In this document: positions 11,426-36,097 of the stretch, in pieces | How positions within the stretch are numbered: position 1 is the stretch's first letter | Layout of the letters: each line of letters begins with the position of its first letter | Source of the DNA: Acidocella aromatica | GTDB lineage: Bacteria; Pseudomonadota; Alphaproteobacteria; Acetobacterales; Acetobacteraceae | Reading direction: 5' to 3' | DNA: 64,000 nucleotides | NCBI RefSeq assembly: GCF_014201825.1 | Contig: NZ_JACHFJ010000004.1 | Location: forward strand, 1-64,000 | Translations under genes and position numbers: made by a program | Notes under the pieces: generated by a model | What the model saw: the letters and a program-made list of their open reading frames with translations, nothing else | The model's database searches: none | Told to the model about the DNA's origin: nothing

Positions 11426-11462
11426 GGGCTGACCATTTGACATGAGGCTTGGCCGGGCTGCA

Positions 11463-11482
11463 TTGATCGACCGAACGATTAA
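11463..11482. promoter_or_regulatory. Palindromic operator upstream of second TetR gene
   Basis: The 20-base site has outer half-sites TTGATCG and CGATTAA that match in 6 of 7 positions. It lies 44 bases before the second TetR start, and its outline resembles the other paa sites. Autoregulation is likely. Confidence 0.5.
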
Positions 11483-11525
11483 TAAGGGTCGGTAGCATGA
11501 CGGTTGACAAGGATATTCCAGGCTG

Positions 11526-12128: not shown

Positions 12129-12154
12129 GGACAGCACAGCCCGGGGCGCTCTCG

Positions 12155-13495: not shown

Positions 13496-13515
13496 TATCC
13501 CCTCCATTTATCTGC

Positions 13516-14016
13516 TTAGATAGGTTCGCCTGCGCCACCGGGCACGCCGGAAGCTGGTATGAACGAACCGCCAATGGTGCGCGAATGACCGCGAAACTCG
13601 GCAATGACCTCGTCATCGGCGCTGATGCGCACATCGTAGATACCTGACCGGCCCGAGCGGGAAACCTCCCGCGCCTCGGCGATCAGCCGTCCACCCCGCT
13701 TGCCAGGGCGGATGAAGGTGATGGCGCATTGCGCTGCGACAGTGACATGGCCGTGCGAATTGCAGGCATAGGCGAAGGCGGTGTCCGCCAGCGCGAAGAT
13801 GAAACCGCCATGCGCGGTCTCATGGCCATTTACCATGTTTTCCCGCACGGTCATGGCCAGTGTCGCCGTGCCGGGGCCGACGGCGAGCAGTTCAATGCCG
13901 AGTTCCTGCGCGGCGCGGTCGGTGGTCCATAGCGTTTTGGCGGCCAGCTCGGCGGTCGCCTGTGGGTCCGCCCGATGCGGGGCGCTGCCGTTCGGCGCTG
14001 TACTTGGTAGGCCCAT
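13516..14016 (-). CDS. paaI: Hydroxyphenylacetyl-CoA thioesterase PaaI
   Basis: PaaI (166 residues) is a hot-dog thioesterase that clears dead-end CoA esters from the pathway. The active-site stretch NGHETAHGGFIFALADTAFAYACNS is intact, with the catalytic Asp in ALAD. It is divergent from paaJ, and a good operator palindrome (14069-14090) lies between them, so paaI-paaK and paaJ are probably controlled together. Confidence 0.9.
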   Translation of the reverse strand: MGLPSTAPNGSAPHRADPQATAELAAKTLWTTDRAAQELGIELLAVGPGTATLAMTVRENMVNGHETAHGGFIFALADTAFAYACNSHGHVTVAAQCAITFIRPGKRGGRLIAEAREVSRSGRSGIYDVRISADDEVIAEFRGHSRTIGGSFIPASGVPGGAGEPI

Positions 14017-14068
14017 CTCGTTCTACACCCCAGTTTGCTTTAACGGCCGCTCTTGACGCAGCTCTTGA

Positions 14069-14090
14069 ATTAACCGAACGTACGGTCAAT
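14069..14090. promoter_or_regulatory. Palindromic operator between paaI and paaJ
   Basis: This 22-bp site reads ATT-ACCG, a central ACGT, then CGGT-AAT, with 18 of 22 positions self-complementary. It sits 53 bases before the paaI start and 63 before paaJ. It has the TetR-operator shape seen in other phenylacetate clusters. Confidence 0.7.
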
Positions 14091-14152
14091 CTAATGCAAG
14101 GCCCAGGCTTGTCAACAGATAAGTGCAGCGGGCCGCACATGAGGAGATGACC

Positions 14153-15361: not shown

Positions 15362-15363
15362 CC

Positions 15364-17430: not shown

Positions 17431-17441
17431 GGTTCAGCCCC
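17423..17441. terminator. Bidirectional hairpin between convergent genes
   Basis: GGGGCTGA-GGT-TCAGCCCC has perfect 8-bp arms and spans the end of the fusion gene and the end of paaY, which converge 3 bases apart. There is no clear T-run. Confidence 0.5.
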
Positions 17442-18039
17442 CCGCCTTCACCTGATGCAGCGGTGTGGCAGCGGCCTGCTGCACGCGATGGCGTTCGGGC
17501 TCCACCTCGGTGAGTGGCGCGCAAGGCGTGAGCCCCGCAAGGCAGCGCCGCGCAAGCTCCTGATACTGCAGCGTGCCGTTGTACTTCCATGTCATCTCCC
17601 GCTCTTCCAGTTCCCGGATGAGCTTGGCCGGTACGCCCGCCACTAGGCTGCGCGCCGGAACCTTGAACCCGGCGCGTACAAAGCTCATGGCCGCGACAAA
17701 TGCGGCCTCGCCCACCTCAACGCCATCCATCACCACTGCATTCATGCCCACCAGCGCATTGCGTCTTACCACGCAGCCATGCAGCACGGCACCATGGCCG
17801 ATATGGCCATTCTCTTCGACAACGACATCCTGCCCCGGAAAGCTGTGAGTTGTGCAGTTGTCCTGAATGTTCGATCCGGCCAACATGATAATCCGCCCGA
17901 AATCACCACGCAGCGACGCCCCCGGGCCGACATAGCAATGCGGACCGATGATGACATCACCAATCAGATCGGCGGAGGGATGAACATAAGCCAGCGGATC
18001 AACCACCGGAACCAAGTTTTCGAATTTATAGATCGGCAT
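17434..18039 (-). CDS. paaY: PaaY, left-handed beta-helix thioesterase of the gamma-carbonic-anhydrase family
   Basis: This 201-residue hexapeptide-repeat protein has DLIGDVIIGPHCYVGPGASLRGDFGRI and the metal-binding histidine pattern THSFPGQ...GHIGHGAVLHG. The tail around TWKYNGTLQYQELARRCL marks PaaY. In characterised systems PaaY hydrolyses ring-derived CoA esters and relieves inhibition of the pathway. ATG 18039 has AGGA at a suitable distance; a TTG at 18045 is too close to it. Confidence 0.9.
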   Translation of the reverse strand: MPIYKFENLVPVVDPLAYVHPSADLIGDVIIGPHCYVGPGASLRGDFGRIIMLAGSNIQDNCTTHSFPGQDVVVEENGHIGHGAVLHGCVVRRNALVGMNAVVMDGVEVGEAAFVAAMSFVRAGFKVPARSLVAGVPAKLIRELEEREMTWKYNGTLQYQELARRCLAGLTPCAPLTEVEPERHRVQQAAATPLHQVKAGG

Positions 18040-18599
18040 GGACAAAATCCTGCTTTCTGAATGCCCTGGTTAAAAGAAGTATATATAAGAGCCATGCGCA
18101 ATACGCGACAGGCGAAGCCCCTCTTATTACGACTGCCCAAAAACTAACGCTCTTGAGGCAGCAGCGGAGAAATATCGCCGCCGGGTGCTTGCTCCCTATC
18201 TCGGCCATGCGCCTGAGCACGAGATTTAGAGAAGCCGGCAAGAGCTTTCCGGAATCTGTACGGTTGAAATAGTTGCCTTCGATGAGTTTGCTGGGCGATT
18301 GGCTGGAGACGGACTGGCCGCTGGGTGCGACCATATCGTTTTTCGGCACGGCTCCCACGGAGCCATACCCTTCGGCTGTTAAGTCTGCCACGCGCATGGC
18401 AGGTTTTAAAGCAGGTACCGCCGCTGGCGGATATGACACCCAAGATTAGGCTTTCCGTGGAGATGATGCCATGATTGGCTTCCAGCACTGCTGGGCCGAA
18501 GCCATCCACTCCGGCCGATCAAGTGATCTTCCGTCTGTGCGCGTTGCGCTTTTAAAGCCTAATTTGAAGGTGCTGTTGCCTTGAGGCGGCAGGTTGGTT
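18040..18599. other. Gene-poor region with a VIT-family remnant
   Basis: No intact gene is seen. The minus strand carries a short stretch resembling the start of a VIT/CCC1-type metal transporter (18415-18510). The rest of the frames show no recognisable family. Confidence 0.4.
18415..18510 (-). pseudogene. Possible VIT/CCC1-family transporter remnant (N-terminal fragment)
   Basis: The minus strand reads AVLEANHGIISTESLILGVISASGG, close to the first helix of VIT/CCC1 iron/manganese transporters (AVLGANDGIVSTASLILGVA). The similarity ends after about 25 residues. Its place beside a metal-transport locus makes a decayed transporter plausible. Evidence is limited to this one helix. Confidence 0.3.
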
Positions 18600-22084: not shown

Positions 22085-23059
22085 TCAGTGCGCGGATGTG
22101 TTTTCGGCGGAAGAAGTGCCGGTAGTGGAACCGCTGTTGCCCGCCGATGCCGGCGGGGTAACTTGGCCGGACGAGGAGGAGGATGCCGCAGGCGCCGGAG
22201 TGATGACGGCGGCCGCTTGGTCTTGTGCCGACGAGGCTGTAGCAGTGTTTTTCGCGGCCGTTTGTAGAGTTGGGCTGGCTTGGTTCGAGCTGGCCGTAGA
22301 GGAGGAGCTTGCCGGTGACGTGGAACTCGGTGTTGCTGGCGTCACCTGGGCAGGCGCGGCGGCCTCGCCGGACGTGGTCGATGATGCAGCTGGCGTCGCG
22401 GTGACTGCGGCAGGTCCCGGAGTTTGCGCCGACGAGGCTGTAGACCCACTTGTAACGGCAGCTGGGGGCATTGGGCTGCTGGGTTGATTTGAAGTGGCCG
22501 TAGAACCAGCCGATGTGGCCGCTCCGTTGGACGCCTTGGCAGCTACAGGCGTCGTTGCCACGGGCGCCGGTGTCTGCACGGTGTAGTCAGGCACGATCCG
22601 CGCCTGCTTGGTGCCGTCGATCACCAGCACATGCAGCCCGATCGGAAGCGCTGTCTTGCTGGTCTGAGTAACGGAAACCAGGTTTCCGCTGGTCTGCTGG
22701 ACGATGTATTCCCAGCCCTTGGTATCCGCGACCGCCTGCTCGGCTGCCACGCCGCCAATGCCACCGACCAAAGCCCCCCCGATTGCTCCGAATGCAGTTG
22801 CTTCCGGCGCGCCTGACAATTGTGCCCCCGCGACGCCGCCAGCGGCACCACCGGCGGCCGCGCCGACCGTGCCATCCGCGCTAATGAGCACCTGCCGCAC
22901 GCCGATAATCACCCCACGCTGCACAGGCGCCTCTAACTGGGCGGCGTCGGCGGCATAGGTGTTTGGGGAGTAGCTCTCATGGCATCCAGCAAGGAACAGT
23001 GGGAGGAACCCCGGAAACAGGAAAAAGGGTAAAGTAACGAGGCGCAAGGCGAGGTCCAT
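22085..23059 (-). CDS. Glycine-zipper outer-membrane lipoprotein, SlyB-like, with low-complexity tail
   Basis: This 324-residue protein starts with a signal peptide and lipobox (FLPLFLAGC, Cys ~26). Next comes a SlyB-like region: RGVIIGVRQVLISADGTVGAAAGGAAGGVAGAQ, a second glycine zipper (GAIGGALVGGIGGVAAEQAV) and GWEYIVQQTSGNLVSVTQ...GLHVLVIDGTKQARIVPDY. Residues ~165-324 are a Ser/Thr/Ala/Pro-rich tail with imperfect repeats. SlyB proteins are small (~155 aa) and act in envelope integrity under Mg2+ limitation, so the doubled length is odd. Its position next to the Mg-type metal locus fits that link. Confidence 0.75.
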   Translation of the reverse strand: MDLALRLVTLPFFLFPGFLPLFLAGCHESYSPNTYAADAAQLEAPVQRGVIIGVRQVLISADGTVGAAAGGAAGGVAGAQLSGAPEATAFGAIGGALVGGIGGVAAEQAVADTKGWEYIVQQTSGNLVSVTQTSKTALPIGLHVLVIDGTKQARIVPDYTVQTPAPVATTPVAAKASNGAATSAGSTATSNQPSSPMPPAAVTSGSTASSAQTPGPAAVTATPAASSTTSGEAAAPAQVTPATPSSTSPASSSSTASSNQASPTLQTAAKNTATASSAQDQAAAVITPAPAASSSSSGQVTPPASAGNSGSTTGTSSAENTSAH

Positions 23060-23244
23060 GTTCTTAGATCAGGCTGGCGTTAATTTAGCCTTTGAGACGC
23101 TGGCTGTCACGCTGGGGTTCGCAAGTAGGGCAGCTTGCCATCAACCATTACCGGTCCGCCTTGTGTCCAGACCAAATTTCCAGCGGCGGTTCACTGCTGC
23201 AAAACGGGTTTTTGTCTCCTAATGGGCGGCTGAAATCTGCCTGA
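23060..23244. other. Spacer between lipoprotein and its inverted remnant
   Basis: No coding signal is seen. It contains the upstream control region of the lipoprotein gene. The transition into the inverted remnant begins at about 23245. Confidence 0.35.
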
Positions 23245-23470
23245 GCGCTTCCTGTCGGGTTACATGTGCTGGTGATCGACGGCACCAAACAGGCGAGGAT
23301 TATGCCTGGCTAGACCGTGCAGACTTCGGCGCCCGAGGCAACGATGCTCGCAGCTGCCTAGCCATCCAACGGGGCGGCCACATCGAACCAAGACAGCTCA
23401 GCTCTACAAGCCACCGTGAAAAGTGCTGCCGTTGTCCGCCTCTCCCGTCCCGTGCACAAATCCGCTGTAT
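23245..23470 (+). pseudogene. Inverted, decayed copy of part of the SlyB-like lipoprotein
   Basis: The plus strand reads ALPVGLHVLVIDGTKQARIMPG, stop, TVQTSAPEAT..., stop, PSNGAATSNQDSSALQATVKSAA. The intact minus-strand gene has ALPIGLHVLVIDGTKQARIVPDYTVQTPAPVATTPVAAKASNGAAT. Stops lie at 23311 and 23359, and there is no start. The copy is cut at 23470 by the IS21-family element. Confidence 0.7.
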
Positions 23471-23499: not shown

Positions 23500-23529
23500 A
23501 TTCCGATTTGATGGCGCCCGGGATTCCGA
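23500..23529 (+). repeat. IS21-family left inner terminal inverted repeat (30 bp)
   Basis: This 30-bp segment begins ATTCCGATTTGATGGCG and is perfectly complementary to 26015-26044. It also contains two of the GATTCCG units that recur at the element's ends. Confidence 0.8.
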
Positions 23530-23596
23530 CATGAAGCCGCCCGTCTCGCCTCGCTTCGCTGGCTGCGTTTTTTCTGGCATTGATATTTTGATTGCG

Positions 23597-24343
23597 TCAA
23601 GTTTTCTCGGCGGTTTTGATTCTGGTTTTGCGCAGGCTGTCGCCGGTGAGGTTGAGCCGGTGGGCGTTGTGGACGAGGCGATCGAGAATGGCGTCCGCAT
23701 AGGTGGGATCGCCGATGACGGCGTGCCACTGCTCGACGGGCAGTTGGCTGGTGACGATGGTCGAGCGCCTGCCGTATCGTTCTTCGAGGATTTCAAGGAG
23801 GTCGTGCCTTGCCTGGCCGTCGAGCGGCTCCAGACCCCAATCGTCGAGGATCAGAAGATCGATCCTGCCGAGCGCCCGGCTGATGCGGACGTAGCGGCCG
23901 TCACCGCGGGCCAGCGCCAGCTCGCCGAACAGTTTCGGCACACGCTGGTAGAGGACGGAGCGGTTATCGCGGCAGGCTTTGTGGCCGAGCGCACAGGCGA
24001 GCCAGCTCTTTCCCACGCCGGTTGGCCCACTGATCACCAGATTGTCGTGCGCGTCGAGCCAGGCACCGGCCACGAGTTTCTGGAACAGCGGCCGGTCGAG
24101 CCCGCGCGCGGCACGGTAATCGACATCCTCGACCAGAGCATTCTGGCGTAGCTTGGCAAGGCGCAGCCGGGCGGCGAGTTTCTTGTCGTGGCGGTAGGCC
24201 AATTCCCGGTCGAGCAGCAGGGCCAGCCATTCGGGATGGGTTAGCGTGGCAGCCTCGGCCGAGGCTTCGGTTTCCCCGAATGCCTTGGCCATGCCGAACA
24301 GTCCCAGCTGGTTGAGCTGGTCGAAGGTGGGGTGAGTCAGCAT
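23597..24343 (-). CDS. istB: IS21-family ATP-binding helper protein IstB
   Basis: This 248-residue AAA+ protein has Walker A ISGPTGVGKSWLACALGHKA, Walker B IDLLILDDWGLEPLD and the usual IstB N terminus (HPTFDQLNQLGLFGMAKAFGE). It helps the IstA transposase choose and bind target DNA. ATG 24343 has GAGGAG upstream and starts just after the original istA stop, the normal IS21 arrangement. A longer upstream frame is ruled out because it overlaps istA coding sequence. Confidence 0.9.
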   Translation of the reverse strand: MLTHPTFDQLNQLGLFGMAKAFGETEASAEAATLTHPEWLALLLDRELAYRHDKKLAARLRLAKLRQNALVEDVDYRAARGLDRPLFQKLVAGAWLDAHDNLVISGPTGVGKSWLACALGHKACRDNRSVLYQRVPKLFGELALARGDGRYVRISRALGRIDLLILDDWGLEPLDGQARHDLLEILEERYGRRSTIVTSQLPVEQWHAVIGDPTYADAILDRLVHNAHRLNLTGDSLRKTRIKTAEKT

Positions 24344-24441
24344 GCTGGTCTCCTCAATGGTAATAGCCCGCGCCGCGGATGTTGCGGTGCTCGATCGCCT
24401 GGTTGTCCGCGGCGTGCTGGGGTGGGGCATGGCGATCGAGG

Positions 24442-25881
24442 TTATTGTCCAAGATGGATTTGACCGAGCCGTAGGTTCGCGCGCGCGATCTCCAGCGCCC
24501 GGGCACAGGCGGCCTCCACCCGTTCCCGGCCAAACGCTTTCACCAGCCGGACGATGCCAAGACAGGCCCGGAAGCCTTGTTCCGGGTGCGCGCGCTCCTC
24601 CAGGATCCGTGTGCATAAAGCGTCGGCGGCGGGACCGATCGTAGCGGCATCCCGTTGGATACGCTCGACCGTCCAGCCCGCGTAACGCCGGTGGCTGGAG
24701 GGCATGTGCTCGGGCAATGTCGTGTGCTTGCCATTGCCGCTCCCGCGCATATGCGCCGCGATGCGCTCGCCGCGCATGAAGATCTCCACACTGCGCGCCG
24801 TCAGGCGCACCTCCACCTGCTCCTTCGCGAAGCGGTACGGCACGCTGTAGTAATGCCGGTCGACATCGACGTGATAATCGAGCCCGACGCGCCGGATGCG
24901 CCATTCCGCGAAGACATAGGGCTCCACCGGCAGGGGCTTGAGGTGCGGGCGGTCCAGGCTTTCCAGGAGTTGGCGGCGGGTAACGCCCAGCCGGCGCAGC
25001 GGTCGCTCATCGTTCACCCGCACCAGCAGGTCCCGGATCGCGGCGTTCAGCTCGGCCAGGCTATGGAAAACCCGGTGGCGTAGGCGGCCCAACAGCCAGC
25101 GTTCCATGATTAGCACGGCAGCCTCGACCTTGGCCTTGTCGCGCGGCTTGCGCGGACGTGCCGGCAGAATGGCGGTGTCATAATGCGCCGCCATCTCGGT
25201 GTAGCTGCGGTTGACCGTGGGCTCAAAGAAGCAGGCTTTGACCACCGCCGTCTTCGGATTGTCCGGCACGATCAGCCGTGGCACCCCGCCGATCGCGGCA
25301 AACGCGCCCGCATGCGCGCCAATCCAGTCGCCCAAGCCCTGGGTCCAGGTCGCTTCGGCATAGGTGAAGCTCGATGCCCCCAGCGCCGCGACAAAAATCC
25401 ACGCCGGCCGGGTCTCGCCGGTCAGCCGGTCAACCACCACCGGCACCGCATCCCCGGCATAATCCACGAAGAGTTTGTCGCCGCCCGCGTGCGATTGTCG
25501 CATCGTCACCGGCAGCTTGCTCTCCCAGCCCCGGTACAGCTCACAGAACCTGGAATAGCGATACCCCGCCGGTACCTGGGCAATATACTCGTCCCATAGG
25601 ATCGAAAGCGTGACGTGCTTGCGCTTGAGTTCCTGGTGCATCCAGGCCCAATCCGGCTCGGCATGCTGGCGATGCCCCTGCCTGGTGCCGTTGTTCTTGT
25701 ACAGCAGCACTTCCAGCGCCGCGTCCGTGACCTCCGCCGCCAACGGCCAGGCCAACCCGGCGCCGGCAGAGCGGCGCAGCGTCTCGCGCACCGTCGAGGG
25801 CACCACGCCCAGCCGCCGGGCAATCTCCCGCTTCGAAACCCCGGCTGCCGTCAAACGCAAAATCTCGCGCACATGGCGCAT
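24442..25881 (-). CDS. istA: IS21-family transposase IstA, C terminus frameshifted
   Basis: The 479-residue product has an N-terminal HTH (ILRLTAAGVSKREIARRLGVVPSTVRETLRR) and a DDE integrase core (LFVDYAGDAVPVVV, VPDNPKTAVVK, PRDKAKVEAAV). It ends abnormally with ARANLRLGQIHLGQ. Reading one base over, from the alternating GC tract at 24479-24488, restores RTYGSVKSILDNNLDRHAPPQHAADNQAIEHRNIRGAGYYH and a stop at 24354, right before istB. So one extra base in this tract removes the last ~40 residues. ATG 25881 has GGGGAG well spaced. Confidence 0.8.
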   Translation of the reverse strand: MRHVREILRLTAAGVSKREIARRLGVVPSTVRETLRRSAGAGLAWPLAAEVTDAALEVLLYKNNGTRQGHRQHAEPDWAWMHQELKRKHVTLSILWDEYIAQVPAGYRYSRFCELYRGWESKLPVTMRQSHAGGDKLFVDYAGDAVPVVVDRLTGETRPAWIFVAALGASSFTYAEATWTQGLGDWIGAHAGAFAAIGGVPRLIVPDNPKTAVVKACFFEPTVNRSYTEMAAHYDTAILPARPRKPRDKAKVEAAVLIMERWLLGRLRHRVFHSLAELNAAIRDLLVRVNDERPLRRLGVTRRQLLESLDRPHLKPLPVEPYVFAEWRIRRVGLDYHVDVDRHYYSVPYRFAKEQVEVRLTARSVEIFMRGERIAAHMRGSGNGKHTTLPEHMPSSHRRYAGWTVERIQRDAATIGPAADALCTRILEERAHPEQGFRACLGIVRLVKAFGRERVEAACARALEIARANLRLGQIHLGQ

Positions 25882-26014
25882 GCAAACTCTCCCCGCTGGC
25901 ATCGATCATCCCCCTTCAGCAAAAGCCAAAGAGGAAACTCTACCGCAGTCAGCGAAGATGCCTTCACCCCCAAACCCCGGGCGACATCATCCCGGAATCG
26001 AGGGCGGGGCTAAA

Positions 26015-26044
26015 TCGGAATCCCGGGCGCCATCAAATCGGAAT
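26015..26044 (-). repeat. IS21-family right inner terminal inverted repeat (30 bp)
   Basis: This is the exact reverse complement of 23500-23529. Further GATTCCG-type units occur outward of it near 26058-26070 and 26084-26094. Confidence 0.8.
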
Positions 26045-26100
26045 GGGTGAGCGTCATCATCTCGGAATCAGTGGGCGCCTTGCCCCGGAATCATCAGTAT

Positions 26101-26471
26101 TGAATTCGACGGGCTCAGGCATACCCATCTGGTATGTCACCGGGGTAAAAAAAGTATTTTTCCCGATGAGTGCAAAAAAATAGTCTTACCCCCAAAATGG
26201 GAGCTGAGAAAACCAAATCGTTCGAAAGCATCTCGCGTAGAGTTTCGGAAGGTTTTGGGTAAGTGAAGCAGGATTAAACCTGGAAAATAAAGTGCGCGAT
26301 GATCTTTGTAGATTTCCGTATGCCTACTTGTACGCAGGGCGTGCACCAGAGAAGGTTTGATGAGTTTGGCCGCACGGCTGAGCGGCCACCTCAGTTGATG
26401 GCATAACTCGTAATGCAGAGCGGCGTTTTTAACAAATTCGTACAAGAAATAAGAAAAAAGGAGATAACTTT
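26101..26471. other. Region upstream of the phenol hydroxylase operon
   Basis: No gene is supported here, although a 102-codon minus-strand frame exists without any recognisable domain. The last 20 bases hold a strong ribosome site for dmpL. I looked for a sigma-54 promoter, which phenol hydroxylase operons often have, and found none with correct spacing. The IS21 element directly upstream may have separated the operon from its original regulator. Confidence 0.45.
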
Positions 26472-27461
26472 TTGACCATCCAGATCAAGACAGTGGAATT
26501 CACGCCCAAGCGGCACACGTTCGGCCATATAGCTCGGCGTCTGGGGGGTGACAGATCTGCCTCACGCTACCAGGAGGGGACGTTGGACCTCCAGGCCACC
26601 GAGAATTTCCACTATAAGCCACTCTGGGAGCCCGAATTCTGGCATTACGATCAGGCGAAGACAGCTGTGAAGATGGCAGATTGGTATAAACCGCTCGACC
26701 CACGCCAGTATTACTACGCCACGTACAACATCGCCCGCGCCAATATGCAGCAGGCTGTTGAACGCAATTTCACCTTTGCCGATGAGCGCGGCCTGTTGGC
26801 TAATTTGCCTGCCGAGCTGAAGGCCAAGATTATCGATACCCTGCTGCCGCTGCGCCATGCGCACTGGGGGAGCAACATGAACATGGCGGAGATTTGCCAG
26901 CGCGGTTACGGCACGGCGGTAACGGCCCCGTGCATCTTTTCAGCCATGGACCATCTCGGAATGGCGCAGATCATCAGCCGCATCGGGCTTCTGCTCGATG
27001 GCCTGACCGGCGAGAGCCTACGCGCCGCCAAACAGACGTGGATGACCGTGACCGCTTGGCAAGGCATCCGCAAGCTCATGGAGGATAGCTTGGTGGAGCG
27101 TGACTGGTTCCACCTTTACGTCGCGCAGACCCTGGGGATGAATGCCGTACTGTTGCGCATTGCCTATACGGGGCTGGAGGCGAGCTACGGAACCGCGGGT
27201 ATGGCGCTGGCCATGCTCACTGAGTTCTGCGCTGACTGGTTGGCCGAGGAAGGCCGCTGGAGTGATGCCGTCATCAAGGCAGTCGCGGCTGAATCACCCG
27301 AGAACAATGCGCTGGTTTCCAAGTGGGCCAAGGACTGGATTGCCCGTGCCGCCGATGCAGCCGTGCCGCTCAGTGTGGCCGTACTTGGTGATGACACTGC
27401 CGCCCGCGTCGCCGGCGAGGCCACGACGGCTCATGCCCGCGCCCTTGGATTAGCTCTGTAA
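26472..27461 (+). CDS. dmpL: Phenol hydroxylase P1 (beta) subunit DmpL
   Basis: This 329-residue protein is the structural subunit of a soluble diiron monooxygenase. Signatures include ASRYQEGTLDLQATENFHYKPLWEP and the mid-protein LPLRHAHWGSNMNMAEICQRGYGTAV...MDHLGMAQIISRIGLLLDGLTGES. The start is a TTG with AAGGAG about 8 bases upstream. Length matches DmpL/PhP1 (~330). No early stops are present, so the gene looks intact, unlike the following dmpM. Confidence 0.92.
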   Translation: MTIQIKTVEFTPKRHTFGHIARRLGGDRSASRYQEGTLDLQATENFHYKPLWEPEFWHYDQAKTAVKMADWYKPLDPRQYYYATYNIARANMQQAVERNFTFADERGLLANLPAELKAKIIDTLLPLRHAHWGSNMNMAEICQRGYGTAVTAPCIFSAMDHLGMAQIISRIGLLLDGLTGESLRAAKQTWMTVTAWQGIRKLMEDSLVERDWFHLYVAQTLGMNAVLLRIAYTGLEASYGTAGMALAMLTEFCADWLAEEGRWSDAVIKAVAAESPENNALVSKWAKDWIARAADAAVPLSVAVLGDDTAARVAGEATTAHARALGLAL

Positions 27462-27470
27462 GGAAGCGAC

Positions 27471-27733
27471 ATGACGCAGATCGCCTCCGTCACGCTGATG
27501 CAGAACGGCGAAGCCCGTCCGGTCATCGATGCCATCATGCAGATAATCCCGGTGTATGCGTGTTGAATATGCCAGGTGCCATCAAACTCAATTGCGATGG
27601 TCTGATCATCGTCAACCGCGCCTCGGTTGAGGAGCGGTTAGGCAAACCATGGAGTCCATAAGAGATCCAACTCACGCTTGTCTCCATGGCGGGCCATTTG
27701 GATGAGGATGACGACCAGTTTACATTGAGCTGA
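27471..27733 (+). pseudogene. dmpM: Phenol hydroxylase coupling protein DmpM, broken by a frameshift and a stop
   Basis: The first frame reads TQIASVTLMQNGEARPVIDAIMQ and then fails, ending at TGA 27564. If one base is restored after 27542 the frame continues DNPGVCVLNMPGAIKLNCDGLIIVNRASVEERLGKPWSP, then hits TAA at 27659 where a Gln codon (CAA) is expected, then EIQLTLVSMAGHLDEDDDQFTLS and the natural stop at 27731. This is a full DmpM (~90 aa) with a one-base deletion and a nonsense change. The coupling protein is essential for hydroxylase turnover. Confidence 0.85.
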
Positions 27734-27757
27734 CAAAAATAAGAAGTGAGGAACAAT

Positions 27758-29272
27758 ATGACCGCCAAGAAACTGAGCCTGAAGCAGCGCTACGAATTCT
27801 TAACCCGCGATCTGGATTGGGAGCCAAGCTACCAACCCATTGATGCAATCTTTCCCTATGACCAGTTCGAGGGGATCAAGATCAAGGATTGGTCCGGCTG
27901 GGAGGATCCGTTCCGCCTGACCATGGATTCCTACTGGAAATTCCAGGCTGAGAAGGAGCGGAAGCTCTACGCCGTGATCGACGCATTTGCCCAGAACAAC
28001 GGCCAGACCGGGATCTCCGATGGGCGCTACGTCAATGTTCTGAAGATCTTCCTCACGGGCATTTCGCCGGAAGAGTATCAGGCGCATCGCGGCTTCGCCT
28101 TCACCGGCCGCCATTTCCGTGGCGCCGGTACGCGTGTGGCTTGCCAGATGCAGTCGATCGACGAGTTGCGTCATGTGCAGACACAGATCCACACGATCAG
28201 TCACTACAACAAGTTCTTCGATGGCATGTCGGAATTCCCGGCCCAGCATGATCGTGTGTTCTACCTATCCGTGCCGAAAAGCTTCTTCGACGATGCGCGC
28301 TCGGCAGGGCCGTTCGAGTTCATGATCGCGATCGGCTTTGCCTTCGAATACCTGTTAACAAACCTTCTGTTCGTGCCGTTCATGTCCGGTGCGGCGTATA
28401 ATGGCGACATGTCAACGGTGACTTTCGGCTTTTCAGCGCAGTCGGATGAAAGCCGTCACATGACGCTGGGTATCGAAGTGATCAAGTTCCTGCTGGAGCA
28501 GCACCCGGACAACTTGCCGATCGTGCAGAAATGGGTGGACAAGTGGTTCTGGCGTGGTTTTCGCCTGCTCGGCATCGTCGCCGCGATGATGGACTACATG
28601 CTGCCGAAGAAAGTGATGTCATGGAAGGAGGCGTGGGATATATACTTCGTTGAGGCCGGCGGTGCACTCTTCAAGGATCTGGCGCGCTATGGCCTGAAGA
28701 TGCCAAAATATGCGGACGTGGCGACCGAGGCGTGCGAGCATATTTCTCACCAGAACTGGGGGCTCTTCTACCAGCTCTGCCACGTCGCGGGCTTCCATGC
28801 TTGGATGCCGGACGCCGCACATCTCGACTGGCTCTCGGAGAAATATCCCAATACGTTCGATAAATATTATAGGCCTCGCTTCGAAATGTGGGCGAAACAG
28901 GAGAAGGACGGAAAGCGCTTCTACTTCAACGGTCTGCCGCAGCTTTGCAGCTGCTGCCAGCTGCCCATGCTCTATACCGAGCCGGGCGATCCCACCAAGA
29001 CCTGCTTCCGCAGTTCAACCTTCAAAGATACCCGCTATCATTTCTGCTCCGATGGCTGCAAGGACATCTTCGACAACGAGCCTGAGAAATACGTGCAGTC
29101 CTGGTTGCCTGTGAACCAGATTTTCCAGGGCAATTGCGGCGGAGCTACGGTTCCGGAGGTGTTGAAGTGGTACCATATCAATGTTGGCGTGGATAACGGT
29201 GACTATGTGGGCTCGCCAGACGAAGCTCTATGGAAGTCCTGGGCCGAACAACGCCTGAGCGAAGCCAGCTAG
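27758..29272 (+). CDS. dmpN: Phenol hydroxylase P3 (alpha, catalytic) subunit DmpN
   Basis: This 504-residue subunit holds the carboxylate-bridged diiron centre. Two E-x2-H ligands sets are visible, DELRH (Glu136, His139) and DESRH (Glu231, His234), with further ligand Glu candidates in SPEEYQAH and FAFEYLL. The C-terminal region has the CSCCQLP and CSDGCKDIFDNEPEKYVQSWLPVNQI motifs, a YHS-type metal site. ATG 27758 has AGTGAGGA upstream; an ATG-like start 12 bases earlier is less likely. The gene is intact. Confidence 0.95.
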   Translation: MTAKKLSLKQRYEFLTRDLDWEPSYQPIDAIFPYDQFEGIKIKDWSGWEDPFRLTMDSYWKFQAEKERKLYAVIDAFAQNNGQTGISDGRYVNVLKIFLTGISPEEYQAHRGFAFTGRHFRGAGTRVACQMQSIDELRHVQTQIHTISHYNKFFDGMSEFPAQHDRVFYLSVPKSFFDDARSAGPFEFMIAIGFAFEYLLTNLLFVPFMSGAAYNGDMSTVTFGFSAQSDESRHMTLGIEVIKFLLEQHPDNLPIVQKWVDKWFWRGFRLLGIVAAMMDYMLPKKVMSWKEAWDIYFVEAGGALFKDLARYGLKMPKYADVATEACEHISHQNWGLFYQLCHVAGFHAWMPDAAHLDWLSEKYPNTFDKYYRPRFEMWAKQEKDGKRFYFNGLPQLCSCCQLPMLYTEPGDPTKTCFRSSTFKDTRYHFCSDGCKDIFDNEPEKYVQSWLPVNQIFQGNCGGATVPEVLKWYHINVGVDNGDYVGSPDEALWKSWAEQRLSEAS

Positions 29273-29284
29273 AGGGAGCCTGAA

Positions 29285-29650
29285 ATGTCAGTCATTGCCA
29301 TTACCCCAGATTATGAAAAGCATATCCAGTACCGTGACGAGCAGGAACTCTACCACGGATCCTTATTGGTTTATGTGCACTGGGAGGAGCATATCTCCTT
29401 TGTCTCCGCCTTTGGCGTGCCGCTGCCGCCGGACACGCCCTTCGGTGCCATCTGCGAGATCGCCAAAGGCATCTATGGCGATCATCCTGACGCCGCCGAC
29501 GTCGACTGGGCCAAGGCCGAATGGATGATTGATGACAAGAAGGCCACCCCAGATTTCGGTAAGTCCATTGGTGAGAATGGTGTTGGTCATAAATCCCTCA
29601 TCCGTTTCTGGACCCCCGGCCTACACGGCTACAAGGGGACGTCCAACTGA
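29285..29650 (+). CDS. dmpO: Phenol hydroxylase P4 subunit DmpO
   Basis: This 121-residue protein has the DmpO pattern: LLVYVHWEEHISFVSAFGVPL..., HPDAADVDWAKAEWMIDDKKATPDFGKSIGENGVGHKSLIRFWTPGLHGYKG. P4 is the small gamma subunit of the hydroxylase. It follows dmpN by 12 bases. The usual next gene, the reductase dmpP (~350 aa), is absent. Confidence 0.92.
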   Translation: MSVIAITPDYEKHIQYRDEQELYHGSLLVYVHWEEHISFVSAFGVPLPPDTPFGAICEIAKGIYGDHPDAADVDWAKAEWMIDDKKATPDFGKSIGENGVGHKSLIRFWTPGLHGYKGTSN

Positions 29651-30254
29651 TATGACGGTGAACGACGCTCAGCCGTTGCCTTGTTGATGGCTACGGAGGT
29701 TCGTGTAATGCCTACGCTTGACCGTCACCACCGCCGAGGCCGCCATCGAAGCCGCATGGGCTAGGGGTTACGTGTGTGCTTTCTTTCCTACCAAGCTCAG
29801 GTGGGGCGGCGGCAGGCGAGTTGGTCCGCCTGCTGCCGGCTTTAGAGCCTCCGCCCGTGCCAGTGAGCCTGATGCATGCGGGCCGGCCGTAAATGCCCCT
29901 GAAGCTGAGAGTGTGTCTTGACTTCGTCGCCTCGGCCCTGCGCAACGCCTTGCCAGCCCATGTTCATACATCCAGAGATTTCATAGCGCTTATGGAGATA
30001 ATGAGAGGTTGTTGTGGTCGCCAAAAGCGCTCACCTCGCAGGGGGGCAAAAAACTACAATCCCAACATGCCAACGGCAAGGTAGTGAAACAGTTTGAGGC
30101 TCGCTGTTTAAAGGCCGATCAGCTTGGCGCTCCGCCAGCGCATAGAGCGTAAAACAGTAATGAGGCGGCCGCTGGCCGGGCGACAGCCAGAAGAGGGAGC
30201 GCATTGCCCCTATCCTGCATACTAATTTCCTCATCAGCTGAGTTGGGACATGGT

Positions 30255-30288
30255 TTATCCACAGGCATCTTGATAACCCAGTGGATAA
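30255..30288. promoter_or_regulatory. Pair of DnaA boxes, possible replication-origin remnant
   Basis: TTATCCACA at 30255-30263 is a perfect DnaA box. AGTGGATAA at 30280-30288 is a box on the other strand with one mismatch, and TGTGGACA follows at about 30294. Clustered boxes in a gene-free stretch recall plasmid or chromosomal origins, but chance cannot be excluded. Confidence 0.35.
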
Positions 30289-30482
30289 GTATGTGGACAT
30301 TGTGACAAGAGCCGGGACAACCCAGCTAGGGCCCAAAGCTGCCGTAAATTGCCCTTGACTTTGCTGAATCCGTTTAATGCTTTGTATTTGTTTGAAAATC
30401 TTTCGAAGATCGGCGACTCGAATGCAGATCGAAACCTGCGCAAACCCACTGATTCAAAAGAAAATGAAAGCAGTGGAAAACT

Positions 30483-30560
30483 AAATCTTGCGTCGCTCTA
30501 TCTCGGCATACGCGGTTAGCGCATCCTCATCGGAGAATATCGCGTTCTTTCGTTCAGATC
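30483..30560 (-). pseudogene. Orphan C-terminal tail, unknown family
   Basis: The minus strand reads SERKNAIFSDEDALTAYAEIERRKI followed by a stop at 30483, with a stop just upstream. The composition is protein-like and acidic-amphipathic, but only 27 residues remain and no family is recognised. Confidence 0.3.
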
Positions 30561-30676
30561 CGGCTCATCGGGAGGTTTCGGTCAAAAAGACAGGTTTTGG
30601 TTGGCTGCCCAGTCTGTGTTTTCAAGTAGGGCCGGACAGAGCCGGCGCAGCCAAGGGCAGAAATGACGTTTTTATT

Positions 30677-30905
30677 GGCCGTTATCCGGCTTGAGCACGT
30701 GGACGACTTGCTTGCGCGTCTCCATGGCTGCTTTCACGCGCTCTGCCTTATAACATTCCCACCCCTCGGCGGATTGAGCCTGCTGAGGTTGCTGGTAGGT
30801 TTGGCTGTTACATATCGGGTGGCGTGGAGGGGGGCTGTATCTCCTTTCGAGACGCAGATTATTGGTGATGATATGGGCAATTTCAGGCCGGCATTAGCGG
30901 AAATT
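30677..30905 (-). pseudogene. Orphan C-terminal ORF fragment, unknown family
   Basis: About 73 codons are open on the minus strand, reading PEIAHIITNNLRLERRYSPPP..., then a Gln-rich linker, then EGWECYKAERVKAAMETRKQVVHVLKP and a stop at 30677. No start codon precedes it before an in-frame stop. The residue composition looks coding, and the tail is basic-helical. I do not recognise it. It could be the end of a plasmid-type protein. Confidence 0.3.
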
Positions 30906-31095
30906 GTGAGAAAATTTTTCAGTATAATCAATAACATAAAGAAGAACCTTAAGGTTGGCTGGTTTGCATCAGGCCAGCTTCTGTTTTCGCGGCGAATATT
31001 TTTTGTGAGTGCCCGGGTCGCTTGCTCGGCTACGCTAGGCGACTCATGTTCGGCATTTAGGGCTGGCGTTACGCCGCCAGCCCCATTCTTTTAAA

Positions 31096-32913
31096 TCAGC
31101 GCAGATGATGCACCTGTTGCAGACCATAAACCGGCGTGGGTAGACCTTCCATCCGCGCCTTGAGCTGCAACGCCAGATACAGCGAGTAGTGGCGCGACTG
31201 ATGCAGGTTACCGCCATGGAACCACAGGTTTTCCTGCTGCGTCGGCTTCCACATATTGCGCTCCTCACCCTCCCATGGACCGGGGTCCTTGGCCGTGGCG
31301 GAACCCAGGCCCCACACCTTGCCCACCTTGTCCGCCACCTCCTGGCTGATGAGGTCGGCCGCCCAGCCATTCATCGAGCCATAGCCGGTGGCGTACACGA
31401 TGAGATCGGCGGGCAGCTCCGTGCCGTCGACGAATTTGACGCCCGTCTCGGTAATTTCCTCGATCTCCACCCCGCTCTTGAGCTTGATGCCGCCATTGAT
31501 GACCAGCTCGCAGGCACCGACATCGATGTAATACCCAGAACCACGGCGCAGATATTTCATGAACAGGCCGGATCCGTCGTCGCCGAAATCCAGCATGAAC
31601 CCAGCCTTACGCAGTGCATCGTAGAATTCCTTGTCGCGCTGCTGGATCTTCTCATACACTGGGATGTGGAATTCGTGCATGATCTTGTACGGTATGGAAG
31701 CGAAGGTCATGTCCGCCTTGCGGGTGGTTACGCCATTGGCCACGGCCTGTTCCGAGTAGAGCCCGCCGAGCGCCTCTTCCATTAGCGAGTCAGAGCGAAC
31801 GATATGCGTGCTGGACCGCTGCACCATCGTCACATCGGCGCCCACCTCCCACAATGCGGCACAGATATCATGCGCGGAGTTGTTGGCGCCGATTACCACA
31901 ACTTTCTTGCCGGCATAGGCATCCGGTCCCGGATGCTGCGAGCTGTGCTGCTGTTCGCCACGGAACTTGTCCATGCCTTTGAAGTTGGGGATGTTCGGCT
32001 TGCCGGACATGCCGGTGGCCAGCACAAGCTGGGTGGGGCGCAGCTCGATCTCCTGTCCGTCCCGCACCACTGTCACGCGCCAGGTCTTGGTCGCCTCGTC
32101 GAATTCCGCATGCTTGGCGATGGTCTTGGACCAGTAATTGATCTCCATGACCTTGGTGTAGAACTCCAGCCAGTCGCCGACCTTGTCCTTGGGCGAGAAC
32201 ACAGGCCAGTTCTTGGGGAAATCGATATAGGGCAGATGGTCGTACCACACCGGGTCGTGCAGGCAGAGGGATTTGTAGCGCTTGCGCCACTGGTCGCCGG
32301 GGCGGTCGTGCTTGTCGATGACGATATGCGGCACACCGAGCTGGCGCATCCGCGCGCCGAGCGCGATGCCGCCCTGGCCGCCGCCGATGATCAGCACGTA
32401 AGGTTGTGTCTCATAACCCAGAGTGCGCACTTCCTCCTCGCGTTTCTCTAGCCAGCTCTTGCGGGTTTTCGAAATGCCATGCTCCGCACCCATCGGGCGA
32501 CGAAAGCCCGTGGCCTCCTCATAGCCTTTAAGCTCGGTCAACGTGGTCAGCAGCGTCCAGGCCACGCCGTCGCGCAGGCGTACATAGGCTTCGCCACGGC
32601 CGATGCCGGTTTCGAAGCTCAGCCACGCCTCCACAATCTCGCCGCTCTGCGTCGGCTCATCGGCAATGGCGAAGCGCACGCCACCCAGATGCGGCAGCGT
32701 GGCGCTCAGCATGTCGCGCACGCCGTCGGGGTTCTCCACCGTCTTGAGGTTCCAGGTGAAGGCGATGAGATCGCGCCAGAAGCTGGTGGTGGCGAAGAGG
32801 CGCGCGGCGTTGTCCACATCGCCCTCGGCCAGCGCGCTGTTGAAGGCGGCGAGCCAGGATTCCGTGATCGCGCGGGGCGTGCCGGTTTTCAGGCCCATCG
32901 TCATATCGTTCAT
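31096..32913 (-). CDS. Flavin-containing monooxygenase with N-terminal SnoaL-like domain
   Basis: This 605-residue protein has an NTF2/SnoaL-like N-terminal ~150 residues (ITESWLAAFNSALAEGDVDNAARLFATTSFWRDLIAFTWNL). A flavin monooxygenase domain follows, with FAD motif VLIIGGGQGGIALGARM, NADPH motif VVVIGANNSAHDICAAL and the fingerprint FRGEQQHSSQH. That fingerprint is F-x-G-x3-H-x3-H, with His where FMOs have Tyr/Phe and Baeyer-Villiger enzymes have Trp. It follows an alcohol dehydrogenase by 18 bases, probably one transcript. It may oxidise the ketone made by that enzyme. Confidence 0.85.
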   Translation of the reverse strand: MNDMTMGLKTGTPRAITESWLAAFNSALAEGDVDNAARLFATTSFWRDLIAFTWNLKTVENPDGVRDMLSATLPHLGGVRFAIADEPTQSGEIVEAWLSFETGIGRGEAYVRLRDGVAWTLLTTLTELKGYEEATGFRRPMGAEHGISKTRKSWLEKREEEVRTLGYETQPYVLIIGGGQGGIALGARMRQLGVPHIVIDKHDRPGDQWRKRYKSLCLHDPVWYDHLPYIDFPKNWPVFSPKDKVGDWLEFYTKVMEINYWSKTIAKHAEFDEATKTWRVTVVRDGQEIELRPTQLVLATGMSGKPNIPNFKGMDKFRGEQQHSSQHPGPDAYAGKKVVVIGANNSAHDICAALWEVGADVTMVQRSSTHIVRSDSLMEEALGGLYSEQAVANGVTTRKADMTFASIPYKIMHEFHIPVYEKIQQRDKEFYDALRKAGFMLDFGDDGSGLFMKYLRRGSGYYIDVGACELVINGGIKLKSGVEIEEITETGVKFVDGTELPADLIVYATGYGSMNGWAADLISQEVADKVGKVWGLGSATAKDPGPWEGEERNMWKPTQQENLWFHGGNLHQSRHYSLYLALQLKARMEGLPTPVYGLQQVHHLR

Positions 32914-32931: not shown

Positions 32932-34008
32932 TTAGCTGTTGAGGTCGATGAGGATTTTGAGATGCTTGCCGGACGGGTCGAGCAGCGCCTCGAACCCTTG
33001 CGCCACGGCGTCCTGCAGCTTGATGCGCGCGGTGACGACCTTGGAGGCCGGCAGCGCGCCGGAGGCGATGAGGCGGATCACGCGCGGCCAGTAATGCGTG
33101 GGGTAGGCCCAGGCGCCACGCAGATCGACGTCCTTGAACGTCACCTGGAACCAGTCGAGCGGGTTCTCGCGCGGGTGCAGCCCGGTCTGCACCACCACGC
33201 CCTGCTTGCGCACGGCGTCCAGGCAGGCTTTCAGCGCGTGCTCATTGCCCACGCATTCCAGCGCCACGTCGCAGCCCACGCCGCCCTCGGTGCCCGCGCG
33301 CACGGCCTCGCCAATATTGTCGCGCTTGGGGTTGAGGGTGACGAGATCCGGCAGCACCGTGCGGGCGAAGGCGAGACGGGAGTCGTTGAGGTCCGAGAGG
33401 AAGAGCAGCCCGGCCCCGGCGGCGCGGGCGGCGAGTAGCGTGAGCAGGCCGATCGGCCCAGCACCGGTCACCAGCACGGAATTGCCCGCACGCACCCCGC
33501 CACGGTCGCAGGAATACACGGCGACGGCGGTGGGTTCGACGAGCGCTGCCTCCTCGTCGCTTAAACTCTCGGGGATTTTCTGGACGTTATAGTCATACAC
33601 CGTGGCGGCATCGGCCATGCCGCCCCAGGCCCAGCTCAGCCCCGCCAAAGCCAATTGCGGGCTTAAGTGAAATAGCCCGCGCTCGGCAAAATATTCCCCC
33701 GCGCGGGGCATGATCAGCGGCTGGATGGAGACGCGGTCGCCGGGTTTTACATTGGTGACGCCATCGCCCACTGCCTCGACCACGCCGCCGAACTCATGCC
33801 CCAGAATCTGCGGGCCAAACGCCCCGGTAAAGGGATGCGGCGTGGTGGGGATGAAGATCGGCCCGTAGGCGTATTCGTGCAGATCGGTGCCGCAGATGCC
33901 GACAAAGCGGTTGCGCACTCGCACCTGGCCCGGCGGGGGCTGGTCGGACGGGGCGGGAATGTCTTCCACGCGCAAATCGCGCGCGGCATGGAATCGTAGG
34001 GCTTGCAA
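32932..34008 (-). CDS. Zinc-type medium-chain alcohol dehydrogenase, 2,3-butanediol dehydrogenase-like
   Basis: This 358-residue enzyme has catalytic zinc ligands in GICGTDLHEY and LGHEFGG, and the nucleotide motif VTGAGPIGLLTLLAARAAG. Similarity in layout is to (R,R)-butanediol/threonine dehydrogenases. The lobe that normally carries four structural-zinc Cys reads MPRAGEYFAERGLFHLS, so structural zinc is absent. A sigma-54 promoter at 34048-34063 lies directly upstream. It likely oxidises a secondary alcohol or diol to the ketone for the downstream monooxygenase. Confidence 0.85.
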   Translation of the reverse strand: MQALRFHAARDLRVEDIPAPSDQPPPGQVRVRNRFVGICGTDLHEYAYGPIFIPTTPHPFTGAFGPQILGHEFGGVVEAVGDGVTNVKPGDRVSIQPLIMPRAGEYFAERGLFHLSPQLALAGLSWAWGGMADAATVYDYNVQKIPESLSDEEAALVEPTAVAVYSCDRGGVRAGNSVLVTGAGPIGLLTLLAARAAGAGLLFLSDLNDSRLAFARTVLPDLVTLNPKRDNIGEAVRAGTEGGVGCDVALECVGNEHALKACLDAVRKQGVVVQTGLHPRENPLDWFQVTFKDVDLRGAWAYPTHYWPRVIRLIASGALPASKVVTARIKLQDAVAQGFEALLDPSGKHLKILIDLNS

Positions 34009-34047: not shown

Positions 34048-34063
34048 AGCAACCGCCGTGCCA
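34048..34063 (-). promoter_or_regulatory. Sigma-54 (-24/-12) promoter for the alcohol dehydrogenase
   Basis: On the minus strand TGGCACGGCGGTTGCT matches TGGCACG-N4-TTGC-T exactly. It is about 40 bases before the dehydrogenase start. The adjacent upstream gene is a GAFTGA-type activator. Confidence 0.88.
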
Positions 34064-34132: not shown

Positions 34133-36001
34133 CTAACTGTGGCGCATCAGCCCCATACGGCGCATCCTCCGGTGGATGGTCGTGCGGTCCACGCCCAATT
34201 GCCGCGCCAGGGCCGAGACATTGCCGCCACATCCCGTCAATGCCGCGCGGAGTTGCTCGGCCTCGGAGCCTGCCAGTCCGCCGGCAAGACGCTCCGGCAG
34301 ATCCACCAGCCCGATTTCTCCGCCCTCGCACAATGCCGCCGCCGTGGCGATGGCGTTGTCCAGCTCGCGCAGATTCCCCGGCCAGCGATGCGCCCGCAGC
34401 GCCTCCCGCGCCTTCGGGGCGATGGACAAGTAGCGGCCTGACGGGCTGTGCCGTGCCAGCAGCCGCTCCACCAGCCAGTCAAAATCCGCCCGCTCGCGCA
34501 AAGGCGGCAGGGTGAGGGCGGCGGCATGCAAGCGGTAATAGAGGTCTTCGCGGAACCGTCCTTCGGCCACCAGGGTGGCGAGGTCGCGGTGCGAGGCGGA
34601 AATCACCCGCACGCGCACCTGACGCGGTTGGGTGCCGCCCAGGGGCAGCACCTCCTGCTCCGCCAGCACGCGCAGCAGCCGGGTTTGCAGCAGCAGCGGC
34701 ATATCGCCGATTTCATCGAGGAACAGTGTGCCGCGGTTGGCGGTCTCCACGAGCCCCTTGCGGCCCTTTGGGGCGGCGCCGGTAAAGGCGCCGGGGGCAT
34801 GGCCGAACAACTCCGCCTCGGCGAGAGCTTCCGGGATCGCGGCACAGTTCACCGCCACGAACGGCCCCTCCAGCCCGCTTGCCGCATGGATGGCCCTGGC
34901 CAGGAATTCCTTTCCTGTGCCGGTTTCGCCATGCAGGCACACCGGCAGCGCGGTGCGGGCGAGGCGCGTTGCCTTCTCCAGAAGCGTGTCGATACCCGGC
35001 ACCCCGCCGCCGAATTCCCGCAGCGCCACGGGGATGGCGGGGGAAGGCGCGCGTATCCGCGTGCCGGGCGGCGGCTCAATGGCGTGGGCAAACAGCAGCT
35101 GGCCGTTCCGCGCGCTTAGCACGCGCTCCTGGGTGGGGCGGGCGCGGGTTAGGCTGGGCAGATCGTCCACGGTGAGGTTGAGGAAATGCGAAACCGGCTT
35201 GCCAAGCACCAGCTCAGGCCGCCGCCAGTCCAGCTCGGCCGACTGCGCCAGCATGCGCGCCGCGGCGTGCGTCATACCCGCAATGCGCCCGGCATTGTCG
35301 ATGGCGACAGCGCCCTCCGGGTCCACGTCCAGAAACTCGGGCGAGAGCGCAAAGCGCAGCACCCATTGCCGGCGCGTCTGCGCCATCAGATTGGCAAGCT
35401 CGATACGCCGCGCCGTGGCGGTGACCAGATGCCGCGCCAAGGTCTGGCTGATCTTCTCGCGCGGGGAGGAGAGCAGGGAAATATCCAACACCGCCGAGAG
35501 CTCCCCGGTCGTGTCGTAGATTGGCGCGGCGGTGCAGGAGAGCGGCGTGTGCGTCATGTCGAAATGGTCGGTCTGGTGGATGGTCAGCGCCTCACCTGTG
35601 GCAATGCATGCGCCCACGGCGCAAGTGCCGGCACGGGCTTCGGCCCAGTCGGCGCCCAGATACAGCCCTGCCTTACGTAGCTCATGCGTTTGCCTCGGGT
35701 CGCCGAAATACTCCACGGCGATGCCCTGGCGGTTGGTCAGCAGCAGCACGTAATTCTGGCCCGAGACATGGCCGTACAGCCGCTCCAGCCCCGAGCGGGC
35801 GATGACGATCAGTTCCTCCGCCTGCTGGCGATGCTCTTTCAGCCGCCCCTCGGGCAGGATGACCGCCTCGCAATTCACCGCCGGGTCCAGGCGGTATTCA
35901 TCCAGGCAGCGGCGCCAGGACTGCACGACATAGGCATCCCGACCGGACGTGCCGCCGCGCCAAGCGGTCTCGATCTCGCGCACATGCTCGGCAGTGCTCA
36001 T
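34133..36001 (-). CDS. Sigma-54-dependent activator, AcoR-like (second copy)
   Basis: This 622-residue protein has a GAF sensor region (~70-210), a AAA+ domain with Walker A LHGETGTGKEFLARAIH, the loop GAFTGA and Walker B GTLFLDEIGDM, and a C-terminal Fis-type HTH (NVSALARQLGVDRTTIHRRMRRMGLM). ATG 36001 is preceded by a GGGGGA site; upstream extension has no support. It lies just before the perfect sigma-54 promoter and palindrome at 34.05-34.12 kb, which it should control. It is a relative of the activator at 1022-3016. Confidence 0.9.
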   Translation of the reverse strand: MSTAEHVREIETAWRGGTSGRDAYVVQSWRRCLDEYRLDPAVNCEAVILPEGRLKEHRQQAEELIVIARSGLERLYGHVSGQNYVLLLTNRQGIAVEYFGDPRQTHELRKAGLYLGADWAEARAGTCAVGACIATGEALTIHQTDHFDMTHTPLSCTAAPIYDTTGELSAVLDISLLSSPREKISQTLARHLVTATARRIELANLMAQTRRQWVLRFALSPEFLDVDPEGAVAIDNAGRIAGMTHAAARMLAQSAELDWRRPELVLGKPVSHFLNLTVDDLPSLTRARPTQERVLSARNGQLLFAHAIEPPPGTRIRAPSPAIPVALREFGGGVPGIDTLLEKATRLARTALPVCLHGETGTGKEFLARAIHAASGLEGPFVAVNCAAIPEALAEAELFGHAPGAFTGAAPKGRKGLVETANRGTLFLDEIGDMPLLLQTRLLRVLAEQEVLPLGGTQPRQVRVRVISASHRDLATLVAEGRFREDLYYRLHAAALTLPPLRERADFDWLVERLLARHSPSGRYLSIAPKAREALRAHRWPGNLRELDNAIATAAALCEGGEIGLVDLPERLAGGLAGSEAEQLRAALTGCGGNVSALARQLGVDRTTIHRRMRRMGLMRHS

Positions 36002-36097
36002 CTCTGTTCCCCCTGCCGCCCATGCACGCCAGCGTGTCAGACGGCAAATTTTTACTTTTGCGGGAAATCTGCGCGCCGCGCAGGGGGAATGCAAGAA

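Follow-up and report, generated by a model that had tools for sequence, protein, structure and literature searches.

Intact hydroxylase genes and a dmpM pseudogene in a second phenol hydroxylase operon of Acidocella aromatica

The DNA analysed here, positions 1 to 64,000 of contig NZ_JACHFJ010000004.1 of Acidocella aromatica (the window; contig C4 of a genome of 2.88 Mb in 29 contigs), carries a phenol hydroxylase operon at 26472-29650 in which dmpL, dmpN and dmpO are intact, the effector gene dmpM is disrupted by three lesions, and neither dmpK nor dmpP is detected nearby. A complete dmpK to dmpP set is encoded on another contig, C14. In this enzyme family the hydroxylase is formed by L, N and O, K is an assembly factor, M is the effector and P is the reductase. 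We lean, if only just, towards reading the window operon as a redundant second phenol hydroxylase that has been reduced to its hydroxylase core and probably relies on the C14 operon in trans. Its ancestor probably held the full K-L-M-N-O-P set; this lineage would have lost the assembly factor, the reductase and the effector and kept the hydroxylase subunits. The LNO hydroxylase may still be produced and in use, with C14 providing M, P and K. That a healthy hydroxylase stands next to a decaying effector would be explained most simply if C14 provided the effector and the reductase.

Gene content of the window operon and lesions in dmpM

The operon and its flanks are made up as follows.

26472-27461, plus strand: dmpL, hydroxylase beta subunit, intact; Pfam PF02332; TTG start
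27471-27733, plus strand: dmpM pseudogene, effector (coupling) protein; frame break at 27540-27541, TAA at 27659-27661, TGA at 27731-27733; PF02406 match on the open piece 27545-27658
27758-29272, plus strand: dmpN, hydroxylase alpha subunit, intact; PF02332 and YHS; both ExxH motifs
29285-29650, plus strand: dmpO, hydroxylase gamma subunit, intact; PF04663
29651-31095, no strand: expected site of dmpP; no remnant detected; both orthologous operons lose similarity to the window at the dmpO stop codon
26045-26471, no strand: stretch from the IS21-family element to dmpL; no dmpK found

A first-pass annotation of this DNA, made from the sequence alone, had called dmpL, dmpN and dmpO intact, and all three are indeed open and match their families. 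The two ExxH motifs of the diiron signature are present in DmpN (ELRH at 136 and ESRH at 231), and DmpL and DmpO exceed the cut-offs of PF02332 and PF04663, as expected of beta and gamma subunits. DmpN matched the PDB entries 2inn, 3u52 and 2inp with E values of 3e-244 to 1e-243, aligning to 2inn and 3u52 over 492 residues. These entries stand for the dmpKLMNOP phenol hydroxylase of the Pseudomonas CF600 and OX1 type. The window L, N and O belong to the same family, but unlike that system the window operon has no effector, reductase or assembly factor of its own. The TTG start of dmpL was considered as a further lesion and dismissed because both orthologous operons described below also start with TTG, making it common to all three copies.

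The dmpM reading frame begins with ATG at 27471 and stays open for 23 codons, after which the homology continues in another frame; the intact DmpM of C14 matched the window by tblastn in two frames, at 27471-27551 and 27539-27730. Compared with intact copies, one base is missing between codon 23, which ends at 27539, and the Asp codon at 27542. The first-pass annotation had placed this loss after 27542; the loss is real and lies slightly upstream. It had also noted the TAA at 27659-27661 where Gln is expected, in keeping with the Gln found there in all six intact Acidocella copies compared. What it overlooked is a third lesion, a TGA at 27731-27733 in place of a Trp conserved in the same six copies, which removes the last three residues. 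Judged by its sequence, the window dmpM is a pseudogene. Programmed frameshifting was rejected, as no slippery heptamer was found in 27471-27760 and two stops would need to be passed as well. The genome is a draft assembly in 29 contigs, which leaves some room for the lesions being sequencing or assembly errors, but we consider this extremely improbable: there are three separate lesions, the frame break lies outside any homopolymer (the sole run of five or more in 27471-27760 is at 27735, past the gene end), and eight unusual residue changes fall within the same 90-codon gene.

The absence of dmpP, which the first reading had reported, was borne out by two DmpP queries against 29600-31300, which gave nothing above noise (best E 1.2). 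The 20-residue stretch near 29714 that had been put forward as a possible dmpP start therefore has no detectable DmpP similarity. For dmpK, the best tblastn match in the window had an E value of 0.24, and a profile built from 76 DmpK sequences gave a best E of 0.76 in 26000-26475. Given that effector and reductase are both needed, as the first-pass annotation had argued, the window operon alone cannot yield a complete phenol hydroxylase.

The complete operon on C14 and other candidate partners

The genome holds three diiron monooxygenase operons with six PF02332 matches. On C14, intact dmpK, dmpL, dmpM, dmpN, dmpO and dmpP lie together and in order, so that the reductase and assembly factor missing from the window are both present there in intact form. 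C14 is also the only source in the genome of a DmpP above 36% identity to the query, of an intact DmpM above 35% identity, and of a DmpK match (PF06099); the other DmpP-like reductases are distant (36%, 35% and 31% identity). The earlier inference that phenol attack is probably lost does not follow: with this full operon on C14, the organism can probably still use phenol, and phenol attack would persist by that route. A genome search for other DmpM and DmpP homologues, which the first-pass annotation had called for, thus recovered intact dmpM and dmpP, together with K, L, N and O, which is half of what that annotation had said would overturn its inference; these proteins may also act with the window enzyme.

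The third operon, on C6, resembles a toluene 4-monooxygenase operon by gene order, as read from its open reading frames (ORFs), and offers another conceivable set of partners, since its effector is intact (PF02406, 106.6 bits) and one of its ORFs resembles a reductase. A variant of this idea draws on a reductase encoded in the window itself (3861-4967, minus strand), which is of the PaaE type (TIGR02160 above cut-off) and a distant relative of DmpP. It nevertheless seems very improbable that C6, and not C14, provides the effector and reductase of the window hydroxylase, or that the reductase comes from another gene such as this one. The C6 effector is only about 33-35% identical to phenol hydroxylase DmpM and the C6 reductase 36% identical to DmpP, compared with 74-77% identity between the C14 DmpM and the window relic in the longer matched part and 59% in the first 27 residues; the reductase in the window passes the PaaE cut-off.

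Related Acidocella operons and constraint on the window genes

DmpN was found at E values of at most 1e-50 in 8 of the 37 genomes of the genus searched. Three of these eight hold a second copy, namely the window genome, Acidocella sp. KAb 2-4 and the metagenome-assembled genome (MAG) STC_75, and all three also hold the first copy (chance 0.007). The second-copy DmpN proteins of KAb 2-4 and STC_75 are 93-95% identical to that of the window, and in neither genome does the homology with the window operon extend past the dmpO stop codon. The STC_75 copy (JAQUAC010000173.1), the closest relative in the trees, is 95% identical to the window in N, 87% in O and 76% in L. Its L, N and O are intact as well, but it differs from the window in having an intact M and P and in showing the end of K, whose last residues lie at the contig edge; the contig is 5.4 kb long and the MAG has a low stated coverage. 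The KAb 2-4 copy (NZ_JAJDJU010000022.1; N 93% identical) is similar to the window in having no K or P beside it, the two genes not being found though the contig continues for about 4 kb, and in having a first copy with K to P elsewhere in the genome. It differs in that dmpM is intact and the neighbours are unrelated genes by ORF reading. No dmpP or dmpK remnant was detected in the window or in the KAb 2-4 flanks with tblastn, short-word blastn or the 76-sequence DmpK profile; downstream in KAb 2-4, 21 residues resembling DmpK (E 0.004) were not believed, the best profile E there being 5. Counted over whole genomes, STC_75 has two M and two P, and KAb 2-4 has two M and one P.

Trees of L, N and O grouped the window with STC_75 in all four data sets, and a grouping of the window with KAb 2-4 was rejected by the approximately unbiased test (p 2e-9 for all codon positions, 0.007 for positions 1 and 2, 0.015 for position 3, and 0.009 for protein). 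A 21-row protein tree of L and N (14 chosen rows and seven operon copies) agrees. For the first copies, the window groups with KAb 2-4, a grouping that is not resolved at third positions. Because the trees join the window with STC_75 and not with KAb 2-4, K and P were perhaps lost separately in two lineages, if the trees are taken at face value; a single shared loss in the window and KAb 2-4 is disfavoured by them. Separate loss is made less firm by three observations: for L, M and N the window and KAb 2-4 are the pair with the smallest synonymous distances, KAb 2-4 deviates in base composition in the tree data, and the two operons have a common upstream element.

26148-26163, plus strand: 16-base element AAAAAAGTATTTTTCC, possible upstream control element, function inferred only

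This element is identical in KAb 2-4; it begins 324 bases ahead of dmpL here, compared with 234 bases there, and it lies inside a 44-base block (window 26120-26163) with 73% identity between the two. The block gave blast E values of 0.0005-0.0007 on short stretches, and none of 60 mononucleotide shuffles did as well. Allowing up to two mismatches, this 16-base core has a single occurrence in the window (64 kb) and a single one in KAb 2-4 (21 kb), and it is absent from the ten other operon loci searched, including the first copies and C6. Retention as a control element or descent from the original operon front could explain it, as could a common K-less ancestor, and it would aid the reading of a kept operon about as much as it weakens a double loss of K and P.

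Constraint was first compared in a set of seven operon copies by counting, for each copy, changes at columns identical in the six others; the window M codons at the frame break, at the stop and in the last three positions were not counted. The window M had changed at 8 of 56 such columns, compared with 7 of 295 pooled over the six intact M copies (p 0.0007) and 3 of 99 in the two other second copies (p 0.018). The window L, N and O had changed at 7/178, 3/381 and 1/52 (11/611 in total), not different from intact copies, and neither stops nor excess change at conserved sites was found in these genes in the seven-copy set. Among 21 rows (17 chosen near-relative loci and four of the operon copies compared here) the window M again ranked first, with 3/35 against 4/724 in the others (p 0.003), and N, O and L ranked 16th, 19th and 4th. 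Branch ratios of nonsynonymous to synonymous change (omega) for the window copy were 0.031 for N, 0.045 for O and 0.133 for L. The implied neutral divergence per site in the seven-row set was at least 0.018 for M and at most 0.016 for L, N and O pooled; singly, the upper bounds were 0.011 for N, 0.040 for L and 0.051 for O. With the point estimate of 0.057, L, N and O together should have gained 6.2 nonsense changes, and none was seen. The window dmpM thus looks relaxed and the hydroxylase genes do not. Of the decay in progress that the first-pass annotation had proposed, the part concerning M agrees with its lesions and excess change; decay of the whole operon is doubtful, because L, N and O have neither stops nor excess change and M has both.

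The main rival, and a strong one, sees the entire window operon as a redundant relic at an early point of its decay, in which M broke first by chance and L, N and O look healthy because little time has passed. We regard this as a serious possibility, if a somewhat doubtful one. The loss of K, M and P strips the operon of every auxiliary protein, and the intact C14 operon makes the window copy redundant. Against it, all three lesions lie in a gene of 90 out of 1044 codons (probability 0.0006 if random, 0.15 for all three in any one gene). If N had been drifting over the whole time implied by the point estimate for M, it should carry about 45 private changes, where 3 are seen, and in KAb 2-4 L, M, N and O are open despite P being gone there.

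Several results weigh against a kept hydroxylase core and in part favour early decay. The relaxation signal in M rests on eight changes, and wider alignments weaken the test, separating M poorly from L, N and O. The 21-row bounds overlap (M at least 0.006, L, N and O at most 0.010). In alignments of about 80 rows (79 for L, 80 for M, 82 for N and 81 for O, with L036 and L037, which are duplicate records of the STC_75 and KAb 2-4 second copies, and rows below 70% coverage left out) 7-9 M columns were usable and the window M had changed at 0 of 7. The branch omega of the window M, 0.148, is not high. A drift as long as the lower bound for M would be compatible with L and O taken singly, though not with N, and at that bound (0.018) only 2.0 nonsense changes would be expected in L, N and O, so that seeing none is unremarkable (chance 0.14). 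Synonymous divergence (dS) among the second copies, 0.66-1.46, is near saturation. Scans for sigma-70 and sigma-54 promoters near dmpL gave no match above chance, and the C14 proteins that would share partners with the window hydroxylase show identities to their window counterparts of 84% for N, 68-70% for L and 53% for O.

Returning to the reading of a hydroxylase core served by C14, it can be widened to an LNO-only cassette kept by selection, with one paralogous auxiliary set serving two phenol hydroxylases and with K and P lost, perhaps independently, in two Acidocella lineages that have a common element upstream of dmpL. This wider version we put forward tentatively, as falling a little short of a favoured account. 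A literature search on Acidocella phenol hydroxylase and on DmpM in trans, orphan, pseudogene or substitution found nothing on a hydroxylase-only cassette among the titles and abstract openings listed; Acidocella and phenol hydroxylase appear together in PMC8203775.

Surroundings, wider survey and meaning

Two further features of the window bear on the history proposed for the operon.

23500-26044, minus strand: IS21-family element with istA (24442-25902) and an istB ORF; bounds given by a 30-base inverted repeat, true ends maybe slightly outside
51654-59214: catechol meta-cleavage genes by NCBIfam, with dmpH, dmpE, dmpC, dmpB and a ferredoxin-like gene on the minus strand and a LysR-type gene, dmpF and dmpG on the plus strand

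The inverted repeats of the IS21-family element lie at 23500-23529 and 26015-26044, upstream of dmpL; its assignment follows from istA (NF033546, 280.7 bits) and from plasmid matches annotated as istA and istB. There is one full copy in the genome, and short similar pieces occur on C2 and C20. Decay had been ascribed to the insertion of this element, but none of the results connects the element with losing K, M or P: no similarity to dmpK, dmpL or dmpM was found around it, and KAb 2-4 is without K and P too, in an orthologous operon flanked by unrelated genes (ORF reading). To the left of the element, a 142-base stretch occurs twice in opposite orientation with 85% identity (22511-22652 and 23244-23385). 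When 23-33 kb was searched against plasmids, none of at least 100 records covered 80% of the query, and the best 20 of 100 matched it solely in its IS21 portion or solely in its flavin monooxygenase portion.

A flavin monooxygenase-like ORF (31096-32913, minus strand) follows an alcohol-dehydrogenase-like ORF (32932-34008, minus strand). About 40 bases upstream of the alcohol-dehydrogenase-like ORF is an exact sigma-54 pattern, TGGCAC-N5-TTGCW (34048-34063, minus strand), with a sigma-54 regulator gene adjoining (34133-36094, minus strand); across the whole window such matches are not in excess.

The catechol pathway, reported by the first reading at 50-59 kb, is present at 51.6-59.2 kb with NCBIfam models above cut-off, except that the ferredoxin and LysR assignments fall below their family cut-offs. 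Near the C14 operon, on the other strand, further catechol pathway genes were read from ORFs, and several align with those of the window. Two meta-cleavage sets are apparent in the genome, at 51654-59214 of the window and at 11452-18291 of locus L010, with about 70% DNA identity in the longer aligned pieces.

In a wider survey of 80 loci from genome contigs, 14 had no DmpP match beside N, KAb 2-4 among them. Of the other 13 genomes, ten encode a full-length DmpP (61% identity or more) at a place other than the fetched locus, one has a DmpP piece (71% over 90 residues) and two have only distant relatives; P therefore need not adjoin N. These 13 loci, eight of them titled Candidatus Thiodiazotropha, carry K, L, M and N; they are similar to the window in having no DmpP match beside N and differ in that all 13 have K and 12 have M along most of its length. 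The exception is locus L070 (7840-8000) in a MAG of Candidatus Thiodiazotropha sp. (ex Ustalcina ferruginea), where only about the last 29 residues of dmpM are found between dmpL and dmpN; dmpP is not beside them, and only a piece of it occurs elsewhere in the assembly. Two other loci are unusual in arrangement. In L091 (7658-10979; alphaproteobacterial MAG OFTM225) K directly precedes N, O and P, and L and M were not found in the locus. In L113, from Solimonas aquatica, K, L, M and N are present with no O or P match beside N, and the same 17.5 kb contains additional L- and M-like matches.

One broken operon, as the C14 genes illustrate, does not show that a pathway step is lost unless the whole genome is searched. 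How strictly effector and reductase must match their hydroxylase is an open question for multicomponent monooxygenases. Two hydroxylases with one partner set in A. aromatica, and relatives at what would be earlier stages in STC_75 and KAb 2-4, may form a natural series for testing the limits of partner sharing.

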